A stretch of DNA of 64,000 nucleotides from Homoserinibacter sp. GY 40078 (GTDB lineage: Bacteria; Actinomycetota; Actinomycetes; Actinomycetales; Microbacteriaceae): NCBI RefSeq assembly GCF_008017545.1, contig NZ_VRTZ01000002.1:124001-188000 (forward strand), given 5' to 3'. The notes beneath the pieces were generated by a model. It was given only the letters and a program-made list of their open reading frames with translations. It was not told the DNA's origin and did not search any database. The translations under genes and the position numbers were made by a program. Numbering within the stretch: position 1 is the stretch's first letter; each line of letters opens with the position of its first letter. Positions 1-10,991 of this stretch are shown here, piece by piece.

Positions 1-1060
1 CCTGGTACTTCTTCGGCGGGTTCTCGGCGTAGGCGATCGACCCGTCGGGGCGCCGGGTGAACCACTCCGGGTGCTCGGTGACCCAGGGGTGGTCGGGAGA
101 GCACTGGAGGGCGAGGTCGAGAGCGACCTCGAGACCGTTGGCTTCGGCCTGCCGGACGAAGAACCGGAAGTCGGCGAGGCCGCCGAGGTCCGGGTGGATG
201 GCGTCGTGCCCGCCCTCTGCTGCACCGATCGCCCAGGGGCTGCCGGGATCTTGGGGGCCGGCGACTGTGGAGTTGTTCGGACCCTTGCGGTGTGCGCGAC
301 CGATCGGGTGGATGGGCGGCAGGTAGATCACGTCGAATCCCATGGCGGCGACGCCGGGCAGCCGCTTCGCGGCGGTGCGGAAGGTTCCCGACACCCAGGT
401 GCCATCGCGCTTCAGACGCGCCCCCTCGGAGCGCGGGAAGAATTCGTACCAGCTGCCGACGGCGGCGCGGGCGGTCTCGACGATGAGCTCGACGGACTCC
501 GACCAGGTGGTGAGCGAGCGCACGGGATGGCGCGCGAGCATCGCGACGAGCCGTCGGTCGTGCGCGACCTTCAGCCGATCTGCCGCAGAGAGGGAGGAGT
601 CGAGGAAGGCGGTGCGCGCATCGGCCGCCGTCTTTCCGGCGATGCCCTCCAGCAGCTCGGCACCCATCGCGAACACGAGCGCCGGATCGTCGCCCGCACC
701 GATCTTGATCTCCGCCGCATGCAGCCAGGTTGCCCAGTCGTCGCTGTAGGCGTGCACGCGGTAGCTGTGGGCACCCAGGGCGTCGGCTCGCACCTCCGCT
801 CGCCAGCGATCGGTGCCGGGGGCGACCAGCGTCATGGGGTGCAGCGTCACGGAGCCATCGGGATGCGTCAGCTCGACCTCGGCGCCGATGATCCCGTGAC
901 CCTCGCGGAAGACGGTCGCCTCGAAGGGCACCACCTCGCCCAGGTAGCTCTTCGCGGGCCATCGTCCCTCCGGCTGCTGGGGCGCGAGATGCCGGATCGG
1001 GATCCTCCCGATCCGGGCCGGCCGCGGGTTGGTGGCGGGGGGAGTGTGGTCGGTGGGCAC
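1..1060 (-). CDS. glgE: GlgE maltosyltransferase (5' part; 3' end beyond window)
   Basis: Alpha-1,4-glucan:maltose-1-phosphate maltosyltransferase, the GH13_3 enzyme that extends glucan chains from maltose-1-phosphate. About 353 codons are present and the catalytic barrel is cut by the left edge. The N-terminal beta-domain carries the GRIPI motif. Barrel motifs visible are MGFDVIYLPPIHPIG, the stretch GPNNS through PWAIG, and LALQCSPDHPWV followed by HPEWF, all typical of GlgE. The GTG start at 1060 is chosen because a TACGGT box lies 6 nt upstream, implying a leaderless transcript. It is divergent from the SipW operon and belongs with glgP and glgX nearby. Confidence 0.93.
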   Translation of the reverse strand, partial: MPTDHTPPATNPRPARIGRIPIRHLAPQQPEGRWPAKSYLGEVVPFEATVFREGHGIIGAEVELTHPDGSVTLHPMTLVAPGTDRWRAEVRADALGAHSYRVHAYSDDWATWLHAAEIKIGAGDDPALVFAMGAELLEGIAGKTAADARTAFLDSSLSAADRLKVAHDRRLVAMLARHPVRSLTTWSESVELIVETARAAVGSWYEFFPRSEGARLKRDGTWVSGTFRTAAKRLPGVAAMGFDVIYLPPIHPIGRAHRKGPNNSTVAGPQDPGSPWAIGAAEGGHDAIHPDLGGLADFRFFVRQAEANGLEVALDLALQCSPDHPWVTEHPEWFTRRPDGSIAYAENPPKKYQ

Positions 1061-1453: not shown

Positions 1454-2086
1454 ATGAACAAGGTCGCCAAGGGCACCATCGCTGCAGCCGCCGGCGTCAT
1501 CCTGCTCATGGGTGGCGCGGGTTCGCTCGCCTACTGGAACGACACCGCGAACGCCGGCCCCGCCAGCGGGAGCAACACCATCACCGCGGGAACCCTCTCG
1601 GTCGCCGCCGTCAACAACGGCACCTGGACCAAGGGCTTCTACAACAACGCCGGCACGCAGGTCACGGCTCCGGCCGCCGTCACGAGCCTCGCGAACGTGC
1701 GCCTCGTTCCCGGCAACCGCCTCGTCTACACGCAGACGTTCAACGTGAGCGCGAGCGGTGACGACCTCTACTTCACGATCGGCAGCACCTCGGGCGCCGT
1801 CACCGCGGCCTCCGTTGCCGCGGCCGACACCGCCCTCGCCGCGCAGATCAACGCCTCCGGCACCACCGCCTTCTCGGTCGCCTCGGTGACCGGCGGCAAC
1901 GTGGTCGCTTCCGGTGTCACCTCCGGCGTCTACAAGGTCAGCTCGAACACCGGCGGCCCGTCGACCATCACGGTCACCTGGACCATCGACTTCCCGTTCG
2001 GCGCCTCCGCCGTCAACACCGCCAAGCTCGGTGCGGTCAACCTGTCGCAGGGGTCGCTGACCCTCACGCAGGTCGCCGCTCCGTAA
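1454..2086 (+). CDS. SipW-type (alternate signal peptide) secreted protein
   Basis: A 210-aa secreted protein. The N-terminus MNKVAKGTIAAAAGVILLMGG followed by AGSLAYWND is the alternate-type signal found on TasA/camelysin-like substrates of SipW signal peptidases. The rest is Ser/Thr/Ala/Val-rich, predicted beta, and lacks cysteine. The start at 1454 has AAAGGA about 8 nt upstream, and the hydrophobic segment begins right after it. It is the first gene of the cassette and is separated from the next by a hairpin at 2095-2127, which would favour its expression over the later genes. By analogy it would be the major surface or fibre subunit; this is inference. Confidence 0.8.
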   Translation: MNKVAKGTIAAAAGVILLMGGAGSLAYWNDTANAGPASGSNTITAGTLSVAAVNNGTWTKGFYNNAGTQVTAPAAVTSLANVRLVPGNRLVYTQTFNVSASGDDLYFTIGSTSGAVTAASVAAADTALAAQINASGTTAFSVASVTGGNVVASGVTSGVYKVSSNTGGPSTITVTWTIDFPFGASAVNTAKLGAVNLSQGSLTLTQVAAP

Positions 2087-2094
2087 CCCGAACA

Positions 2095-2127
2095 GCGAGG
2101 GGCCGGAAACCCGAACCGGCCCCTCGC
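2095..2127 (+). terminator. Intra-operon hairpin (attenuator or partial terminator)
   Basis: GCGAGGGGCCGG and CCGGCCCCTCGC form a perfect 12-bp GC-rich stem with a 9-nt loop, 8 nt after the stop codon of the first SipW substrate. No U-tract follows, so it is either a weak terminator or an mRNA 3'-end stabiliser. Confidence 0.6.
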
Positions 2128-2135
2128 AACGGGAG

Positions 2136-2235
2136 TGGCGGCTCCCACCCGAACGCACCACCTGCACTACCCGAATCACCCGAACTACCCGAACCACCTG
2201 CGTCACCCGGACACCTGCAGCACCCCGAACGCTCC
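2136..2235 (+). repeat. C-rich, G-poor spacer with repeated ACCCGAA
   Basis: The RNA-like strand here repeats ACCCGAAYC units and is rich in C with few G residues. Such composition resembles Rho-utilisation regions. A similar repeat occurs in the leader of the glycan operon on the minus strand near 44290-44370. Confidence 0.45.
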
Positions 2236-2258
2236 ACGACTCGATACGGATGAGACCC

Positions 2259-2861
2259 ATGCCCCGCACGCGTCAGCCCGCTCACCCCCCGCGCGGCCGC
2301 CGCTCCACCGAAGGAGCCCGGCGCCGCCTGCCCCGCGTGACCCTCGGCCGCATCTTCGGCGCCACCGCGGCAGTGATCGTCGGCACGATGGCCGCCGTCG
2401 TCGCCGCGGGCGGCAGCTACGCGTATCTGAACGCGAGCGCCGTCGTCGGCCAGACCGGTGCCGCGGTCACCGCGGGCACCAGCACCCTGCTCGTCCAGCG
2501 CGGTAGCGACGCCGCCGCCGCCACCGTCGTGCTCCCGTCGTCGCTCTTCCAGGGGATGCTCCCCGGCGACGTCGTCAACCAGACCCTCACCGTGCTCAAC
2601 ACGGGAGACGCAGACCTCCAGGTGACCGCCGCTCTGACCGGCACCAGCGCCTGGGAGACGCGCGTCGCCGTGGGAGCGTGTCCCTCATCCGGCACGCTCC
2701 CCGGCGGCGCGCTCACCACGGTCCCCTCCGCGTCCGGCGGCCTCGCCGCGGGCACGTCCGCCGCGATCTGCCTGCAGGTCGTGTTGCCCGCGACAGCGCC
2801 GGCGTCCGCGGAGGGGACCACCACCTCGTTCAGCCTCGTCCTCACCGGGAGCCAGGCATGA
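2259..2861 (+). CDS. Putative SipW-dependent secreted protein, second substrate
   Basis: About 200 aa (in-frame ATGs at 2250 and 2259). A basic N-terminus (PRGRRS, RRR) precedes a long hydrophobic segment ending AAGGSYAYLNAS, which matches the A-Y-W/L-N style of alternate signal peptides next to SipW peptidases. The mature part has a TasA-like beta pattern (PGDVVNQTLTVLNTGDADLQV). Two cysteines (VGACPSS and AICLQV) could form a disulfide. Its stop overlaps the next start (ATGA), so translation is coupled. It probably works as a minor or anchoring component with its neighbours; no exact role is known. Confidence 0.72.
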   Translation: MPRTRQPAHPPRGRRSTEGARRRLPRVTLGRIFGATAAVIVGTMAAVVAAGGSYAYLNASAVVGQTGAAVTAGTSTLLVQRGSDAAAATVVLPSSLFQGMLPGDVVNQTLTVLNTGDADLQVTAALTGTSAWETRVAVGACPSSGTLPGGALTTVPSASGGLAAGTSAAICLQVVLPATAPASAEGTTTSFSLVLTGSQA

Positions 2862-4225
2862 GTCGGGGGTTCGGACTGAAGTCGCGCATCGCCGCCGTGA
2901 CGGCGATCACCGGCTTCCTCGTGCTGGCGGGCACGGGAGCCGGCTGGGCCTACTGGTCGAGCCAGGCGAACGTGCAGGTCCAGACGGCTTCCGCCGACCT
3001 CACGCTCGACGCGACCGGGTTCGATTCCCTCGCGAAGACCTTCACCAACGACTCGCTGAGCCACACCGGCTCGGTCTCGGTGAAGAACACGACGACCACC
3101 ACGAGCACCCAGAAGGGTGCCGTGACGCTCACGTTCAGCGCGACCGGCCAGAGCACCTCGTTCCTCCAGAACTTCGCGATCCTCGTGTGGCAGTCGACGA
3201 CGGCGAACCCGTGCACCGCATCCGCGACCCCGGGAACCTCGCTCCTGTCGAGCAACTGGGGCAGCACCTCCAGCTACACGACTCCCGCCGCGAGCGGGTT
3301 CAGCGCCGGTGAGACGCGCACCTACTGCGTGCGCACCACGGTCGCGACCCGCGAGTCGGTCGCCACGACCGCCGGGTCGGTGACCTTCACCCCCCGCATC
3401 AGCGGCAGCATCGCGGTCGGCTCGTTCACCGGAACCGATGCCGAGACCACCACGCAGGCGACCGGCTACATCTACACGCCGTCGACGATCACCACGAGCA
3501 CGTCCACCTATTACTGGGTGCGTCCCAACCTCAGCTCCACCGACTACTCGACCTACTGCGCCGACGTGAACGGCGGATCGCCCGGATCCGGGACGACCGT
3601 CATCTCCTACGGATGCAAGACGAGTGGAGCCGAGAACCAGGTGTGGCGGTTCACCGGAATCTCCGGACGCACGGGTTACTACACGATCACCACCCGCGCG
3701 AACACGAACTACCTGATCGACGGCTCCAGCGGCACCCTGCGCACGCAGACCTCCTCGGGCGCCACGTCGCAGGCCTGGCACCTGCAGCACGTCAGTGGCA
3801 GCATCTACCAGATCGTCAACGACGCGTCCGGACTCTGCTGGACCTCGCCCATCGGATCCGGCATCAACCTCGGCGACATCACCCTCGCGTCGTGCTCGAG
3901 CTCGGCGCAGCAGCAGTTCGTGATGTCGCGTGCCGTCTCGAGCGTCTCGTGCACCTATAGCGGCGGCAACTTCTCGGTCTCGCTCACCGCCGCACCCAGC
4001 ACCCCGTACTCGGTCCTCGCCGATGGCACGACTCGTGACACCGAGACCACCAACGCGAGCGGCACGACCACCCTCAGCTTCTCGCGCACCTCGGCGTCGT
4101 CGGGCACGCACGATCTCGAGGTCTACGACGAGAACGGCACGCGCGTCGCGTTCGGCTCGTACACCCGCAGCACCTTCTCGTCCAGCACGAACTCGAACTC
4201 GTGCTCCATCGGGGACATGATGTGA
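2858..4225 (+). CDS. SipW-type secreted protein with ricin-type beta-trefoil domain
   Basis: A 455-aa protein beginning MSRGFGLKSRIAAVTAITGF, then a hydrophobic run to TGAGWAYWSS, an alternate-type signal with the AYW motif. Residues about 35-210 are Thr/Ser-rich beta structure with two cysteines. Residues about 215-350 read as a ricin-B-like (beta-trefoil) lectin: YCADVNGGSPGSG, ENQVWRFTG, YLIDGSSGTLRTQ, SQAWHLQHV, YQIVNDASGLCW and QQQFV give the repeated QxW-like pattern. The last about 100 residues form another beta domain. It overlaps both neighbours (ATGA before, TGATG after). A carbohydrate-binding surface or fibre-tip role is inferred. Confidence 0.75.
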   Translation: MSRGFGLKSRIAAVTAITGFLVLAGTGAGWAYWSSQANVQVQTASADLTLDATGFDSLAKTFTNDSLSHTGSVSVKNTTTTTSTQKGAVTLTFSATGQSTSFLQNFAILVWQSTTANPCTASATPGTSLLSSNWGSTSSYTTPAASGFSAGETRTYCVRTTVATRESVATTAGSVTFTPRISGSIAVGSFTGTDAETTTQATGYIYTPSTITTSTSTYYWVRPNLSSTDYSTYCADVNGGSPGSGTTVISYGCKTSGAENQVWRFTGISGRTGYYTITTRANTNYLIDGSSGTLRTQTSSGATSQAWHLQHVSGSIYQIVNDASGLCWTSPIGSGINLGDITLASCSSSAQQQFVMSRAVSSVSCTYSGGNFSVSLTAAPSTPYSVLADGTTRDTETTNASGTTTLSFSRTSASSGTHDLEVYDENGTRVAFGSYTRSTFSSSTNSNSCSIGDMM

Positions 4226-5109
4226 TGGCCACGCGACGGATCCACGCCGCCGGGATGGCGGTAGCGCTCGCCGGGGCTGCGGCCCTGGTGGTCGTCCCTG
4301 CGCTCGGTGCCGCCGCACCGGCGAGCGCCGATGTCCAGCCGATCGCGCTCTCGGCGGACGGCAGCACCTTCGTCGACGACCTCGGTACCGCCCTATTCGG
4401 AGGCGCGAAGATCGTCCCCGGGGCCTCGGTCACCCGCACCTTCTGGGTGAAGAACCGCACAGCCGAGCCCGGCCACCTCGCCGTCGCCGTGCAGGGCGTC
4501 GGCAGCGCCGACCCGGAGCTCCTCGCGCGACTCACCGTCTCCGCCGACGCGGATGGGACGCCCGGCTCGGATGTCGCTCTCGCCGACGTCGATCCGTGCG
4601 CGACGCTCGTCAGCGGGGTCACGCTCGCCGGCTCCGGCGCCATGCAGGTCGATGTCGTGCTCGCGCTCGGCGATCTCGCCGGACTCGATGCCCAGGGATC
4701 GCTCGGCACGTTCGACCTGCGCGTGACCCTCACGAGCACCGACGTCGACGCGCCCGACGGGTGCGCGACCGTCGACCCGCCCACCGACGGCGGCTCCGGC
4801 TCCGGAGGGTCCGGTTCCGGCGGATCCGGCTCGACCGGCACGGCCGGCTCCGGCGGTTCCAGCGTCGTGGTGACCGGTGCCGGTGGCGGCTCCGCCCCCG
4901 CAGACACCGACACGGCAGAAGAGCCCGTCGCATCCGGCGAGGACGGCAGCCTTCAGGGCGAGCCCGCCGGAGCCAGCTTCACCCCATGGAACACCGACCG
5001 TTTCTACCAGGAGTACATCGTCGCGCTGTGGCTCGTCGGCATGATCGTGGGCGCCATCTACGCCCTCGCTCGTCGCCGTCGTCGCCGCAGCACAGAGGAG
5101 GACGCATGA
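4225..5109 (+). CDS. Secreted, C-terminally membrane-anchored protein of the SipW cassette
   Basis: A 294-aa protein. It has an N-terminal signal (MATRRIHAAGMAVALAG, ending near APASADV), a beta-rich ectodomain of about 150 residues, and a Gly/Ser-rich linker (GGSGSGGSGS...). One C-terminal transmembrane helix (YIVALWLVGMIVGAIYAL) is followed by a run of arginines. The signal here looks classical rather than AYW-type. It starts in a TGATG overlap with the lectin gene and ends in an ATGA overlap with the signal peptidase gene. Its topology suits a membrane anchor or assembly factor for the cassette's surface proteins. Family not recognised. Confidence 0.7.
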   Translation: MATRRIHAAGMAVALAGAAALVVVPALGAAAPASADVQPIALSADGSTFVDDLGTALFGGAKIVPGASVTRTFWVKNRTAEPGHLAVAVQGVGSADPELLARLTVSADADGTPGSDVALADVDPCATLVSGVTLAGSGAMQVDVVLALGDLAGLDAQGSLGTFDLRVTLTSTDVDAPDGCATVDPPTDGGSGSGGSGSGGSGSTGTAGSGGSSVVVTGAGGGSAPADTDTAEEPVASGEDGSLQGEPAGASFTPWNTDRFYQEYIVALWLVGMIVGAIYALARRRRRRSTEEDA

Positions 5110-5762
5110 GCACCATGACCACACCGCGCCCGACCGTCGCACCGGTCGAGCTCGCGCCGCTCGCACCCATGCCCGCGCAGGTCGCCGTCCGCGGTCGACG
5201 CCGCGCGCTGAAGGAACGCGGGCTGCTCGGCTACCTCGCGCTCGGACTCAGCTGGGGGCTGCTCGCCTTCGTTCTGCTCGTCGCGGCTCTCGTCGTCGTC
5301 GTCCCGGCCGCGACCGGATCCACCCCGTACACGATCCTCACGAGCTCGATGGAGCCGAACATGCCCGCGGGCACGCTCATCGTCGTGAAGCCCACGGATG
5401 TCGACGACATCCAGATGGGCGATGTGATCACGTACCAGCTGAACTCCGGTCAGTCCGAGGTCGTCACGCACCGGGTGATCGCGATCCAGGGTGAGAACCT
5501 CACCGACGGCGAGCGGCACTTCATCACCCAGGGCGATGCGAACTCCGCGCCCGACGAGAACCCGGTCCGCGAGGTGCAGGTGCGCGGTACCGTCTGGTAC
5601 TCGGTGCCCTGGATCGGCTGGGTCAACAACCTCGTCAACGGCGACATGCGCGCCGTCGTCATCCCGATCGTGGCCGTGCTGCTGTTCGGCTACGCCGGAT
5701 GGATGCTCGTCACGAGCCGAATCGACAAGCGTCGGTCACGCGAAACCTCCGCGACATCCTGA
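5106..5762 (+). CDS. sipW: SipW/ER-type signal peptidase I
   Basis: A 218-aa membrane signal peptidase. A helix at about 40-68 precedes the catalytic segment LTSSMEPNM (Ser81). The general base is in VVTHRVIAI (His122) instead of the lysine of classical bacterial LepB, and TQGDAN (Asp144) follows. A second helix lies at about 176-198. The Ser/His arrangement marks the SipW/archaeal/ER class, which processes TasA/camelysin-like substrates. Last gene of a tightly overlapping operon with four candidate substrates, so it is most likely dedicated to them. Confidence 0.88.
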   Translation: MSTMTTPRPTVAPVELAPLAPMPAQVAVRGRRRALKERGLLGYLALGLSWGLLAFVLLVAALVVVVPAATGSTPYTILTSSMEPNMPAGTLIVVKPTDVDDIQMGDVITYQLNSGQSEVVTHRVIAIQGENLTDGERHFITQGDANSAPDENPVREVQVRGTVWYSVPWIGWVNNLVNGDMRAVVIPIVAVLLFGYAGWMLVTSRIDKRRSRETSATS

Positions 5763-5790: not shown

Positions 5791-8346
5791 GTGAAGGCCA
5801 TCCGTCGGTTCACCGTCCGATCCGTTCTGCCCGAGGAGCTGCTCCCGCTGGAGGAGCTCGCCGCGAATCTGCGGTGGTCATGGCATCAGCCGACCCTCGA
5901 TCTGTTCCGCGACATCGCGCCGGACCTGTGGGACGAGCTCGGGCGCGACCCCTATGGACTGCTGGGCGAGGTTCCGCCCGCACGGCTCGCCGAGCTCGCA
6001 TCCGACGAGGTGTACCTCGCCCGCATGACGGCCCAGCGCGACGAGCTGCGCGCCTACCTCTCGGAACCCCGCTGGTACCAGGGAATCGGCGGCGACACCC
6101 CGCGGACGATCGCCTACTTCTCGCCCGAGTTCGGCATCGCCGAGGCGCTGCCGCAGTACTCCGGCGGCCTCGGGATCCTCGCGGGCGACCACCTCAAGTC
6201 GGCATCGGATCTGGGGGTGCCGATCGTCGGCGTGGGCCTGTTCTACCGGTCCGGATACTTCCGCCAGGCGATCTCACGCGACGGGTGGCAACTCGAAAGC
6301 TACCCGGTGCTCGACCCCGACGGCCTGCCGATGAACGTCCTCCGGGCACCGGATGGGGCGGCCGCGCAGGTCGTGCTCGCCCTGCCCGGCGGCACGGCGC
6401 TCACGGCGCGGATCTGGCGGCTCGCGGTGGGGCGTGTCACGCTGCTGCTCCTCGACACCGACATCCCCGAGAACGACGAGGCCCTGCGCAGCGTCACCGA
6501 CCGTCTCTACGGGGGAGGCGGTGAACATCGCCTGCTGCAGGAACTGCTGCTCGGGATCGGCGGAGCGCGGGCCGTCGCCCTCTACGCCCGGCTTGCCGAC
6601 ATCCCCCAGCCGGAGGTCTTCCACACCAACGAAGGGCACGCGGGCTTCCTCGGGCTCGAGCGCATCCGCGAACTCGTGGCAGGCGGGCTCTCGTTCGCCG
6701 AGGCGCTGCGCGTGGTGCGCTCGGGGACCGTGTTCACCACCCACACCCCGGTCGCGGCAGGCATCGACCGCTTCGAGGCTCCGCTCGTGGAGCGCTACTT
6801 CTCGACCGATCTGCTGCCCGGCATCGACGTCGCCGATGTGCTCGCGCTCGGCGCCGAGGATTACGAGGGCGGAACGCCCGACACCTTCAACATGGCCGTG
6901 ATGGGGCTGCGTCTCGCCCAGCGCGCGAACGGCGTCTCGCAACTCCACGGCGACGTCAGCCGCCACATGTTCGGCGCCCTGTGGCCCGGGTTCGACGCCG
7001 ACGAGGTGCCGATCGCCTCGATCACGAACGGCGTGCACCCCTCCACGTGGACGGACCCCGAGGTGCGTCGACTCGCGGCGTCGCGCCTCGGTAATGAGGA
7101 CTCCACGGCGGTCGACTGGACGAGCCCGGATGTCAGCGACGCCGAGATCTGGAAGCTGCGCGGCACGCTGCGCGCGCAGCTCGTCGCCGACGCCCGCGCC
7201 CGGATGACCGCCGCCTGGGAGGAGCAGAACCCGACGAGCCCCGCCCCGCCCTGGTATCGCGACCTGCTCTCGCCGGATGTGCTGACGATCGGCTTCGCCC
7301 GGCGCGTACCCACCTACAAGCGCCTCACTCTCATGCTCCACGACCCCGAGCGGCTGCGGGCGCTGCTCACCGATCCGGATCGGCCGGTCCAGCTCGTCGT
7401 GGCGGGCAAGTCGCATCCTGCCGACGACGGGGGCAAGCGGCTCATTCAGCTGCTCGTCGAGTTCTCGCAGGACCCTGCGGTGCGTGAACGCATCGTGTTC
7501 CTGCCCGACTACGACATCGGCATGGCGCAGAAGCTGTACCCGGGGTGCGACGTGTGGCTCAACAACCCGCTGCGGCCCCTCGAGGCGTGCGGCACCTCCG
7601 GGATGAAGGCGGCCCTGAACGGCAGCCTCAACCTGTCGATCCTCGACGGATGGTGGAACGAGTTCCACGACGACCACAACGGGTGGGCGATCCCGTCGGC
7701 GGACTCCGCGGGCGACGGAGCCGAGCGCGACGCCCTCGAGGCGGCGGCGATGTACGACCTCATCGAGCACCAGATCGCCCCCCGGTTCTACGACCGCGGG
7801 GTCGATGGCGTGCCGACGGCGTGGGTCGGCGACATCCGGCACACCCTCGACACCCTCTCGCCGGCGCTCTCGGCGGATCGCATGGTGCGCGAGTACGTCG
7901 AGCGACTGTACCTGCCTGCGGCGTCAGCGATGCAGGCGATCCGCGCCGACGACGCGGCTCCGGCGCGCGAACTGGCCGCGTGGGTCGCGCGGGTGACGGC
8001 GGCGTGGCCTGAGGTGCACGTGGCGCATGTGGAGTCCGGGGGAGTGGATGCGACCCCGCAGGTGGGGGAGGAGTTGCGGGTTCGCGCGTTCGTGGAGCTC
8101 GGCGAGCTCACCCCCGACGATGTCGCCGTCGAGCTCGTCTACGGTCGACCGCGCACGGGGGAGCAGCTGTCGGAGGTGCGGATCGCGGAACTCGCGCTCG
8201 AGAGCCACGACCTCGGCCGACCGGCGGTCTTCCTCGGGTCGGTGACCTTCGACCGTGCCGGAGCCTTCGGCTACACGGTGCGCGTCATCCCGCGCCACCC
8301 GCTCCTGGCCTCCTCCGCCGAGCTCCCCCTCCTCACCCTCCCCTGA
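5791..8346 (+). CDS. glgP: Alpha-glucan (glycogen) phosphorylase
   Basis: An 851-aa enzyme releasing glucose-1-phosphate from alpha-1,4-glucans. It is the short-form actinobacterial/archaeal-like phosphorylase type, with N-terminal DUF3417-like helices (LRWSWHQPTLDLF, about 28-40), the glucan core YFSPEFGIAEALPQYSGGLGILAGDHLKSASD (given here in pieces: YFSPEFGIAE, QYSGGLGILAGDHLK), and the PLP-site motif CGTSGMKAALNG with Lys at about 606. The GTG start follows a TAGGGT box by 6 nt. It sits with glgX and glgE, consistent with glycogen turnover. Confidence 0.93.
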   Translation: MKAIRRFTVRSVLPEELLPLEELAANLRWSWHQPTLDLFRDIAPDLWDELGRDPYGLLGEVPPARLAELASDEVYLARMTAQRDELRAYLSEPRWYQGIGGDTPRTIAYFSPEFGIAEALPQYSGGLGILAGDHLKSASDLGVPIVGVGLFYRSGYFRQAISRDGWQLESYPVLDPDGLPMNVLRAPDGAAAQVVLALPGGTALTARIWRLAVGRVTLLLLDTDIPENDEALRSVTDRLYGGGGEHRLLQELLLGIGGARAVALYARLADIPQPEVFHTNEGHAGFLGLERIRELVAGGLSFAEALRVVRSGTVFTTHTPVAAGIDRFEAPLVERYFSTDLLPGIDVADVLALGAEDYEGGTPDTFNMAVMGLRLAQRANGVSQLHGDVSRHMFGALWPGFDADEVPIASITNGVHPSTWTDPEVRRLAASRLGNEDSTAVDWTSPDVSDAEIWKLRGTLRAQLVADARARMTAAWEEQNPTSPAPPWYRDLLSPDVLTIGFARRVPTYKRLTLMLHDPERLRALLTDPDRPVQLVVAGKSHPADDGGKRLIQLLVEFSQDPAVRERIVFLPDYDIGMAQKLYPGCDVWLNNPLRPLEACGTSGMKAALNGSLNLSILDGWWNEFHDDHNGWAIPSADSAGDGAERDALEAAAMYDLIEHQIAPRFYDRGVDGVPTAWVGDIRHTLDTLSPALSADRMVREYVERLYLPAASAMQAIRADDAAPARELAAWVARVTAAWPEVHVAHVESGGVDATPQVGEELRVRAFVELGELTPDDVAVELVYGRPRTGEQLSEVRIAELALESHDLGRPAVFLGSVTFDRAGAFGYTVRVIPRHPLLASSAELPLLTLP

Positions 8347-8353
8347 CCCCGTC

Positions 8354-8428
8354 CCAATCCCGCGAGATGTCCAAATGTGCACATCTCGCGGGGCGAGATG
8401 TGCACATTTGGACATCTCGCGGGATTGG
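8354..8428. repeat. Nested palindromic repeat, copy 1
   Basis: Two 35-nt arms (8354-8388 and 8394-8428) are perfect reverse complements around a 5-nt loop. Each arm is itself an inverted repeat, CGAGATGT ... ACATCTCG, so one long hairpin or two small ones can form. Related copies lie at 19526-19590 and 20364-20432. It sits between convergent glgP and ybaK and could end transcription both ways. Confidence 0.9.
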
Positions 8429-8472
8429 TCTCGCGGGCTGGGGCGCGCTGGGCCGCGCGGCCCGGGGCGGGG

Positions 8473-8949
8473 CTAGAGAGCGATGGGGGCTACGCGCGCG
8501 TCGGTGGCGCGGATGAGGTCCGCGGGGGCGAGGCCCAGATCGAAGCCGCGGCGGCCTCCGGAGACGTAGATCTCGTCCCACAGCTCCGCGGTCTCGTCGA
8601 GCACCGTCTCGTGCCGGGTCTTCTGCCCGATCGGGCTGATCCCCCCCACGACGTACCCGGTCCGGCGTTGCGCGACCGCCGGATCCGCCATCGCCGCGCG
8701 CTTGCCCCCGACGGCGGCGGCGAGCGCCTTCAGATCGAGCTTGCCGGTCACGGGCACGATGCCGACGACGAGTCGACCGTCGACATCCGCGAGCAGCGTC
8801 TTGAACACCTGCTCCGGATCCAGGCCGAGCGCCGTCGCAGCCTCCATCCCGAAGTCGCGGTTGGCGGGATCGTGCTCGTACGCGTGTTCCGTGAACGGGA
8901 TCCCGGCCGCCAGCAGCGCGACCGTCGCCGGGGTGCCGCCCGCCGCCAT
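8473..8949 (-). CDS. ybaK: YbaK/EbsC-family aminoacyl-tRNA deacylase
   Basis: A 158-aa trans-editing protein. The family hydrolyses Cys-tRNA(Pro) and similar mischarged tRNAs. Recognisable are FTEHAYEHD, the conserved lysine in EQVFKTLLAD, VPVTGKLDLKALA and GGISPIGQK with a C-terminal DLIRATDARVAPI, all typical of YbaK. Its ATG overlaps the glgX stop (TGATG), so the two are translationally coupled, although the functions are unrelated. Length matches the family. Confidence 0.9.
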   Translation of the reverse strand: MAAGGTPATVALLAAGIPFTEHAYEHDPANRDFGMEAATALGLDPEQVFKTLLADVDGRLVVGIVPVTGKLDLKALAAAVGGKRAAMADPAVAQRRTGYVVGGISPIGQKTRHETVLDETAELWDEIYVSGGRRGFDLGLAPADLIRATDARVAPIAL

Positions 8950-10991
8950 CAGTCGGCCCGGAACAGCAGGATCGAGGTCGGCGCCATCGGCAGCTCCTCA
9001 CCCGGTCGGTGTACGCCCTCGATGTTGCTGATGTCGTCGTGCCCGGAATCCCACAGCAGTGTGTAGCGCTCGACGCCCTCGTGCGCGGGCAGCGTCACCG
9101 ACACGTCGGTTTCGAGGCCGTGCACCACGAGCAGGATGCGGTTGAACTCCTCGAATTCGGGCGTCGACGCCGCGAGGTACTGCAGTGTGCGCTCCTCGGG
9201 GGAGTCCCAGTCCTCGAGAGTCATCGTCTCGCCCGACTTGTTGTACCAGTCCATCTGGCTGGCGGACGGCGTCGTCTCGCCCCAGCGACCGAAACGCACC
9301 GGACGCAGCGCGGGGTTCTCGCGGCGCAGTCGGATGAGCGTCTTGACGACCTCGAAGAGGTCCTGCTGCCATTCGCTGCGATCCCAGCTCAGCCAGGTGA
9401 GCTCCGAGTCGTGGCAGTAGGCGTTGTTGTTGCCGCGCTGGCTTCGCCCGAACTCGTCGCCCGCGGTCAGCATCGGGATGCCGGCCGAGAGCAGCAGCGT
9501 GCCCAGCAGATTCCGGACGGCCTTGCGGCGGATGGCGAGTACTTGCTCGTCGCTGGTGGGTCCCTCGACGCCGTGGTTGAACGACTTGTTGTCGTTCGAG
9601 CCGTCGCGGTTGTTCTCGCCGTTGCCGAGGTTGTGCTTGCGGTCGTACGCCACGAGGTCCGCCGCCGTGAAGCCGTCGTGCGCGGTGATGAAGTTCACGC
9701 TCGCGAGAGGCCCGCGCTCAAGCGAGAACACGTGGTTCGACCCCGCCAGCCGCCGCGCGAGCGATCCGATCCCCTCACTCGCGGTGCCCGACTCGCGGGC
9801 GCCCGCGATGTCGCGCAGCCAGAAGTTGCGCATCCGGTCGCGGTAGCCGTCGTTCCATTCCGACCAACCGTCCGGGAAGTTGCCCACCTGCCAGCCGCCG
9901 AGGCCGACATCCCACGGCTCGGCGATCATCTTCACGCCCTGGAGCGCCGGGTCGTCGAGGATCGCGTGCAGCAGCGGATGGTCCGGGCTGAATTCCGCTC
10001 CCTCCCCGCGGCCGAGGGTCGCGGCGAGGTCGAAGCGGAATCCGTCGATCTGCACCTCGTTCGCCCAGTAACGCAGAGAGTCGAGCACGAGACGCTGCGC
10101 AGCGGGCAACTCGAAGTTCAGCGTGTTGCCGCAGCCGGTGGTGTCGATGTAGGCGCCGTCGGGTGTCTGCCGGTAGTAGGACGCGTTGTCGATGCCGCGG
10201 AACGAACTGGTCGGGCCGCCGGGTCCCTCCTCCGAGGTGTGGTTGTAGACCACATCGAGGATCACCTCGAGCCCCGCCTCATGCAGCAGCTTGACCATGC
10301 CCTTGAACTCGCGCAGCACCGCGCCCGTGCCGCCGAACTGCGCCTCCCGGGTGGCATAGCCCGCGTGCGGCGAGAAGAAGGCGAGAGTGTTGTAGCCCCA
10401 GTAGTTGACGAGGCCCATCTTGCGCAGCCGCTGCTCGGAGACGAACTGATGCACCGGCAGCAGCTCGACGGCGGTGACGCCCAACTCCTTCAGGTAGGCG
10501 ATCGTCGACGGATGCGCGAGGCCGGCGTAGGTGCCCCGCAGCTCCTCGGGGATGTCGGGGTTGAGCTTGGTGAGCCCCTTCGCGTGGGCCTCGTAGACGA
10601 TCGTGTGGTCGAGGGGCGTGCCGGGCTTCCGGGCGTCGCCCCAGTCGAAGGAGTCGTCTTGCACATAGCTGCGCCAGGCGCCATCCGGGGTGCGCTCGAG
10701 GCCACGTGCGTAGGGATCGAGAAGGAATCGCTCGGGGTCGAAGTCGTGGGTGGGCCCTGAGGGACCGTCGACGCTCAGGGCGTACGCGGCTCCCGGTACG
10801 AGCGAGCGGGTGGTCGCCTGCCACACATCGCCGTCGCGGGTGAGGGGTACGCGCTTCGCGACCCAGTTCGGGTCGTCATCGTCGAAGATGCACAGCTCGA
10901 TCGAGGTGGCGTGGGCACTCCATACCCGGATCTCGCCGCCGCGGGAGGTATGACGGACCCCGAGATTCCTGAGCGGATCCGCGGGCGACAT
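8949..10991 (-). CDS. glgX: Glycogen debranching enzyme GlgX
   Basis: A 680-aa GH13_11 isoamylase-type enzyme that removes alpha-1,6 branches from phosphorylase-limited glycogen. It has an N-terminal CBM48 (about 10-95), then the barrel: VYEAHAKGLT, DVVYNHTSE, DGFRFDLAATLG (nucleophile Asp), MIAEPWD (acid/base Glu) and FITAHDGFT (stabilising Asp). LTAGDEFGRSQRGNNNAYCHD is typical of GlgX. The ATG at 10991 follows TAACCT by 7 nt, implying a leaderless start. It shares an operon with ybaK downstream. Confidence 0.95.
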   Translation of the reverse strand: MSPADPLRNLGVRHTSRGGEIRVWSAHATSIELCIFDDDDPNWVAKRVPLTRDGDVWQATTRSLVPGAAYALSVDGPSGPTHDFDPERFLLDPYARGLERTPDGAWRSYVQDDSFDWGDARKPGTPLDHTIVYEAHAKGLTKLNPDIPEELRGTYAGLAHPSTIAYLKELGVTAVELLPVHQFVSEQRLRKMGLVNYWGYNTLAFFSPHAGYATREAQFGGTGAVLREFKGMVKLLHEAGLEVILDVVYNHTSEEGPGGPTSSFRGIDNASYYRQTPDGAYIDTTGCGNTLNFELPAAQRLVLDSLRYWANEVQIDGFRFDLAATLGRGEGAEFSPDHPLLHAILDDPALQGVKMIAEPWDVGLGGWQVGNFPDGWSEWNDGYRDRMRNFWLRDIAGARESGTASEGIGSLARRLAGSNHVFSLERGPLASVNFITAHDGFTAADLVAYDRKHNLGNGENNRDGSNDNKSFNHGVEGPTSDEQVLAIRRKAVRNLLGTLLLSAGIPMLTAGDEFGRSQRGNNNAYCHDSELTWLSWDRSEWQQDLFEVVKTLIRLRRENPALRPVRFGRWGETTPSASQMDWYNKSGETMTLEDWDSPEERTLQYLAASTPEFEEFNRILLVVHGLETDVSVTLPAHEGVERYTLLWDSGHDDISNIEGVHRPGEELPMAPTSILLFRAD

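Follow-up and report, generated by a model that had tools for sequence, protein, structure and literature searches.

A conserved five-gene SipW cassette of Microbacteriaceae that may build a TasA-type surface fibre

Introduction

Most of what is known of TasA-type fibres comes from Bacillus and archaea. The question considered here is whether such a fibre is also built by a five-gene operon of the actinobacterium Homoserinibacter sp. GY 40078 (Microbacteriaceae; 3 contigs, 2.98 Mb in total), in which four genes for secreted proteins are followed by a gene for a SipW-class signal peptidase. The operon occupies positions 1454-5762 of a 64,000-nucleotide (nt) stretch of contig NZ_VRTZ01000002.1 (124,001 to 188,000 of the forward strand), which is called the window below. 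An earlier account made from the letters alone (the sequence-only reading) had described it as a self-contained SipW cassette with up to four surface substrates, from which a fibre or a surface layer would be assembled. The cassette was found to be conserved in relatives and to have its own dedicated peptidase, and on balance it appears to build a thin fibre. The open-access literature searched yielded no work on an operon of this kind in actinobacteria.

Results

Conservation of the cassette and its peptidase

The operon consists of five open reading frames on the forward strand. The last four overlap one another (2858/2861, ATGA; 4223-4227, TGATG; 5106/5109, ATGA), and genes 1 and 2 are separated by a gap of 163 nt. 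In relatives, the junctions of the cassette were likewise mostly 4-nt overlaps, except that between genes 1 and 2 (median gap, 131 nt). The five-gene layout, the overlaps, the AYW, AYL and AYW motifs of genes 1 to 3, the C-terminal anchor of gene 4 and the positions of Ser81 and His122 in gene 5 were all as the sequence-only reading had given them.

The substrate family TIGR04089, to which gene 1 belongs, was detected in 84 of 200 Microbacteriaceae genomes, and 82 of these 84 also contained the peptidase family TIGR02228 (Fisher p 1.5e-18, with kinship among the genomes ignored). The two exceptions, G044 and G099, were fragmented assemblies, the former with part of a SipW at a contig end. Therefore, relatives with the cargo genes and without sipW, which had been named beforehand as evidence that would speak against a dedicated cassette, were not encountered. 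At about a dozen loci SipW escaped the final gene calling and was recovered by tblastn. The order gene 1-gene 2-gene 3-gene 4-SipW was kept in many genera of the family, including named members of Protaetiibacter, Schumannella and Cryobacterium, and Protaetiibacter mangrovi (locus L121) was among the best matches. Shorter versions were found in Herbiconiux and Naasia, and a simpler order (gene 1, SipW, gene 4, a gene 1-like gene and a second SipW) in Nocardioides and Aeromicrobium. Because TIGR04089, TIGR02228 and RicinB_lectin_2 were all matched and the order recurred in dozens of other genomes, the operon is not a chance arrangement.

The gene 5 product matched TIGR02228 above the curated cut-off (7.8e-29; 100.6 bits against 51.85) and remained under the cut-off of the Bacillus SipW equivalog NF046067 (82.2 bits against 190). 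Judged by position only, it has a Ser/His pair in place of Ser/Lys, with Ser81 in TSSMEP and His122 in VVTHRV; a strict count of this motif over all cassette SipW proteins was unreliable. It shared 63-70% identity with the SipW proteins encoded by four close cassettes of other genomes, compared with 33% for its two paralogues in its own genome, which fits a peptidase inherited together with its cassette. The host genome contains three SipW loci, and each of its two above-cut-off TIGR04088 matches was adjoined by one of them, in agreement with the description of the cassette as self-contained. The claim of a SipW-class peptidase with adjoining substrates was also borne out, and gene 5 would cleave the products of its neighbours.

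Some loci departed from these arrangements. In three loci of Nocardioides or Aeromicrobium (L176, L184 and L191), the second SipW-like protein was larger (326-485 amino acids), and L191 contained two sets in succession. Two tandem cassettes with one SipW called between them were seen in genome G048 (L096:2328-11309), the second comprising a gene 1 of its own together with an anchor and a large AxW protein. In Curtobacterium MCPF17_052 (L183:5335-9025), gene 1 stood without a cassette between two reverse-strand genes of 488 amino acids, which may be copies of a mobile element by which the cassette was disrupted.

SipW-type subunits and their link to TasA

Gene 1 was assigned to TIGR04089 (exp_by_SipW_III, alternate-type signal peptide domain) with 1.6e-27 and 96.7 bits against a cut-off of 60, and it also matched TIGR04088 (5.4e-6; 26.4 bits, cut-off 19). 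Because TIGR04089 is a curated NCBI family, proteins of this kind are already known bioinformatically. Genes 2 and 3 were under the cut-offs of both models and were assigned by motif and profile similarity, the hydrophobic stretch being followed by LAYWND in gene 1, YAYLNA in gene 2 and WAYWSS in gene 3. Gene 4 has an ordinary AxA signal (ASA-DV) and is therefore not expected to be a SipW substrate, so that, for the window, it was rejected as the fourth of the "up to four" substrates proposed earlier. These sequence features thus support three putative SipW-type substrates and one C-terminally anchored partner.

Comparison of mature-domain profiles joined all four secreted proteins through gene 2 (genes 1 and 2, 95.9%; genes 2 and 3, 98.0%; genes 2 and 4, 94.9%). 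The protein families had been rebuilt by gene position, since repeated rounds of searching with gene 2 pulled in the family as a whole. A role of gene 2 as an adaptor or initiator is possible.

The AlphaFold2 model of gene 1 (mean predicted local distance difference test score, pLDDT, 82.9) was searched against 350,542 chains of the PDB. The TasA fibre 8aur ranked first with a match probability of 0.93, the next matches had at most 0.38, and the archaeal bundling pili 7ueg ranked fifteenth. An alignment of 51 gene 1 sequences contained 15 invariant columns, including W28, P86, G87 and Q206. In TasA, the most conserved contact is the proline box, formed by F29, P62, F200 and Q232 (PMC10151520). 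W28, P86 and Q206 of gene 1 are possible counterparts of F29, P62 and Q232, a correspondence drawn without structural superposition. The modelled fold and the conserved residues together suggest a donor-strand fibre.

Motifs at the donor side (start of the mature protein) and at the acceptor side (Pro-Gly) were tallied over the relatives in a coarse count. The donor motif was present in 94 of 97 gene 1, 51 of 64 gene 2, 58 of 63 gene 3 and 2 of 41 gene 4 proteins; the Pro-Gly motif was found in 96/97, 45/64, 16/63 and 28/41, respectively. This pattern, coarse as it is, would be expected if gene 4 only accepted a donor strand and gene 3 only donated one. By the number of residues before the first strand, gene 4 was not clearly set apart from the other subunits.

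Lectin-bearing protein and anchor

Gene 3 matched RicinB_lectin_2 (PF14200) in three stretches (6.3e-19; 68.9 bits, cut-off 25.6) and would bind sugars. Among 50 relatives of gene 3, the N-terminal domain was kept and the C-terminal end varied: a ricin-type lectin was found in 30, fn3 in 17 and CBM_2 in 1, and some ends were immunoglobulin (Ig)-like. Gene 3 joins an export and putative polymerisation domain to a variable adhesive end. The lectin previously noticed among the cargo was thus real, yet it is one of several alternative ends.

Gene 4 matched no model of Pfam or NCBIfam. Its AlphaFold2 model (pLDDT 76.5) had a generic Ig/PapD-like fold, and its matches included two donor-strand filaments, the Sulfolobus thread 7pnb (probability 0.99) and TasA (1.00). 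The sequence before its C-terminal helix (NTDRFYQEY) contains no sorting motif, and the window protein was rejected as a sortase substrate, although relatives carry such a motif: a strict L[AP]xTG was present near the C terminus of 26 of 55 gene 4 proteins, others had near variants, and relatives matched the LAVTG, LAXTG and LPXTG anchor models of NCBIfam. The host genome contains three sortases. Gene 4 is accordingly an anchor; about half of the relatives have a sortase motif, in place of which the window protein has a membrane helix and an arginine tail.

Hairpin after gene 1

The gap behind gene 1 contains a G+C-rich hairpin (Table 1). A stem of at least 10 base pairs (bp) starting within about 22 nt of the gene 1 stop was present in 60 of 104 loci, compared with 27 of 177 other same-strand gaps and 1 of 104 shuffles. 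Across relatives the pairing was kept and the sequences differed. Lacking a T tail, the hairpin may act as a partial terminator or protect the 3' end, and the main subunit, gene 1, could thereby be produced in excess. In Clostridium perfringens, a predicted terminator after bsaA leads to a short sipW-bsaA transcript and a readthrough product (PMC7395162), which is a close precedent for such a function. A search for RNA families gave a tRNA far from the operon as its sole match.

Table 1. Features of the operon, with positions in the window
Feature	Position	Strand	Description
Gene 1	1454..2086	+	210 amino acids; TasA-like main subunit, SipW-type signal LAYW-ND; TIGR04089
Hairpin GCGAGGGGCCGG-loop-CCGGCCCCTCGC	2095..2127	+	12-bp G+C stem, 9 nt past the gene 1 stop; z -4.0
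Gene 2	2250 (or 2253)..2861	+	about 202 amino acids; second SipW-type subunit, YAYLNA; possible adaptor
Gene 3	2858..4225	+	455 amino acids; SipW-type N-terminal domain and ricin-type lectin; putative adhesin of the tip
Beta-trefoil domain (ricin-type lectin) of gene 3	3545..3919	+	residues 230-354, PF00652
Gene 4	4225 (or 4222)..5109	+	294/295 amino acids; Ig-like anchor, ordinary AxA signal; putative base of the fibre
Membrane helix and arginine tail at the C terminus of gene 4	5002..5097	+	residues 260-291, AlphaFold2 helix; ALARRRRRR
Gene 5	5106..5762	+	218 amino acids; SipW-class (endoplasmic reticulum-type) signal peptidase
Ser81 codon	5346..5348	+	presumed nucleophile, TSSMEPNM
His122 codon	5469..5471	+	presumed general base, VVTHRV

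Other SipW loci and neighbouring genes

The two further SipW loci of the host genome (C1:171726 and C2:415509) both cluster with C-terminally anchored proteins, and proteins with AxW signals are found at least in the latter. The former (L105:4688-9528, corresponding to about 171700-176530 of C1, minus strand) contains SipW, proteins of 223 and 201 amino acids (C-anchored) and then genes of 179, 192 and 550 amino acids. The 223-, 201- and 550-amino acid proteins, the three tested, had no NCBIfam match; this cluster may be another fibre or surface set. The latter (L106:3519-7405, about 414500-418400 of C2) encodes a protein with AAWTDTEW, SipW, a C-anchored protein and a 600-amino acid "choice-of-anchor G" protein (NF033766, 5.7e-37).

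The cassette of the window is flanked by alpha-glucan genes at 1-1060 (minus strand) and 5791-10991, namely alpha-glucan phosphorylase, ybaK, glgX and a partial glucan-enzyme-like gene that is probably glgE. At least one of these genes was also near 36 of 100 cassettes.

Discussion

The product of the operon is fairly probably a thin TasA-type fibre on the cell surface. The TasA fibre assembles by a donor-strand mechanism (PMC9674648). By the same principle, SipW would cut the unusual signal peptides of genes 1 to 3 on the external side of the membrane and would free a short N-terminal segment beginning with an aromatic residue, and this segment would serve as the donor strand that completes the following subunit's beta-sandwich. 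Gene 1 would form the shaft, in which gene 2 would also be placed as an adaptor or initiator. Gene 1 would be made in excess because the hairpin is proposed to limit or protect transcripts, lowering the expression of genes 2 to 5. Gene 4 would be cut by an ordinary signal peptidase and would stay in the membrane, being attached to the wall by sortase in many relatives. Since it could accept a donor strand and hardly give one, it would be the base. Gene 3, which keeps the donor segment, has lost the acceptor-side Pro-Gly and carries a lectin, would therefore be the sugar-binding tip. Polymerisation itself, the order of the subunits along the fibre and their ratio are what we infer here. The complete arrangement, that is, a polar, usher-free fibre with an acceptor-only base in the membrane or sortase-linked to the wall, a shaft of subunits that both donate and accept, and a tip that only donates and whose sugar-binding ends are exchangeable, is advanced tentatively and with somewhat less than even confidence.

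Several observations weigh against this interpretation. Gene 1 scored 15.8 bits with the TasA/camelysin model PF12389 and did not reach the gathering score of 22.5 (8 of 51 gene 1 relatives reached this model at E 0.01), and its profile matched no PDB sequence, solved TasA included, even at E 10. The structural match to 8aur, with an E value of 0.012 and a template modelling score of 0.36, is suggestive only. The fold of gene 4 is generic, with TasA only at rank 22 among its matches. In an earlier profile run with another alignment setting, genes 1 and 3 and genes 3 and 4 were unlinked and the link between genes 1 and 4 was weak. Some gene 2 and gene 4 proteins lack the donor or Pro-Gly marks, and the pairwise identities of gene 1 and SipW correlated only moderately (Spearman 0.44). 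Finally, the gene calls for Clavibacter, Curtobacterium and several Microbacterium loci contained no gene 4, so that an anchor of this sort is not always required.

An alternative with a smaller, though not negligible, probability is that a fibre is made, with gene 4 acting as its initiator, a membrane folding platform that hands gene 1 on, and with the lectin protein decorating the shaft laterally. The Ig/PapD-like fold of gene 4 and two cysteines invariant in 19 aligned gene 4 relatives would suit such a platform, and TapA is membrane-associated and nucleates TasA (PMC10151520). The wall-anchoring signals of gene 4 relatives argue against this role, as does the near absence of a donor segment from gene 4 proteins, whereas TapA donates its N terminus.

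It is unlikely that SipW merely frees three individual surface proteins, soluble or loosely bound, that form no polymer, with gene 4 as an independent membrane protein or a chaperone of the TapA or CapP type. In its favour, the sequences of genes 2 and 4 are variable, the gene 4 fold is PapD/MSP-like, and TapA of Bacillus subtilis and CapP of Bacillus cereus act as chaperones (PMC10151520, PMC13082335). On the other hand, residues of both the donor side and the acceptor side are invariant in gene 1, whose best fold match is the TasA fibre, the profile links unite all four proteins through gene 2, and the conserved hairpin favours an excess of gene 1.

A surface layer in the form of an S-layer-like sheet, which secreted beta-sandwich proteins with an anchor could make, is highly improbable given that the fold match is to a filament, and it was rejected because no S-layer homology domain was among the Pfam and NCBIfam matches of the five proteins; of the "fibre or surface layer" first suggested, only the fibre is retained as probable, favoured by the fold and the conserved residues.

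The probable donor-strand fibre may be compared with known systems. As in the tapA-sipW-tasA operon of B. subtilis, a SipW-class peptidase adjoins its substrates, and the best, though only suggestive, fold match of gene 1 is the TasA fibre; as in TasA, an A-aromatic cleavage region of the fibre subunit is followed by a short segment, and the subunit has possible counterparts of the proline box. Unlike that operon, the one described here has the major subunit first and SipW last, a dedicated C-terminal anchor and a lectin-bearing third protein, its gene 1 is under the Pfam camelysin cut-off and its SipW under that of the Bacillus equivalog. TapA-type models of Pfam and NCBIfam matched none of the five proteins. 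The cargo set is therefore distinct from that of Bacillus, as had been anticipated.

The sipW-tasA/calY/capP locus of B. cereus also has several SipW substrates of one family and an accessory protein, but CapP is a DUF4047 chaperone-like protein (PMC13082335), and neither a lectin nor such a wall or membrane anchor is described in the passages used. The sipW-bsaABCRSD operon of C. perfringens resembles the present one in having one major polymer with accessory secreted proteins, and its terminator with readthrough matches the hairpin; in contrast, BsaA has no sorting motif and is mainly extracellular, a two-component regulator lies inside the operon, and the text consulted describes no lectin. 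F-ENA endospore appendages are likewise Gram-positive fibres with separate anchor and tip proteins and joining by N-terminal peptides. Unlike the products of the present operon, their anchor and tip are collagen-like and spore-specific and the subunit fold is another one, SipW being unmentioned in the abstract used (PMC11952670). The operon is thus a variant of the SipW/TasA fibre kind, as far as fibre assembly is accepted, and not a tapA-sipW-tasA operon. TIGR04089 covers the substrate only; the operon partners, anchor, tip and hairpin fall outside this model. What is new here is the conservation of gene order, the variable end of gene 3, the gene 4 anchor, the TasA fold match, the gene 1 hairpin and the marks of polarity.

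If the fibre is confirmed, a wide range of soil, marine, cold-living and plant-associated actinobacteria would make TasA-type fibres whose base and adhesive tip could be named from sequence, and the variable ends of gene 3 would provide a set of candidate adhesins directed at the surfaces of plants or at polysaccharide surfaces. It would also become testable how a donor-strand fibre that has no usher acquires its anchor, its cap and a fixed ratio of subunits. Should the polar arrangement hold as well, the TasA principle would be joined in many actinobacteria, including plant-associated ones, with the base-shaft-tip plan of other pili.

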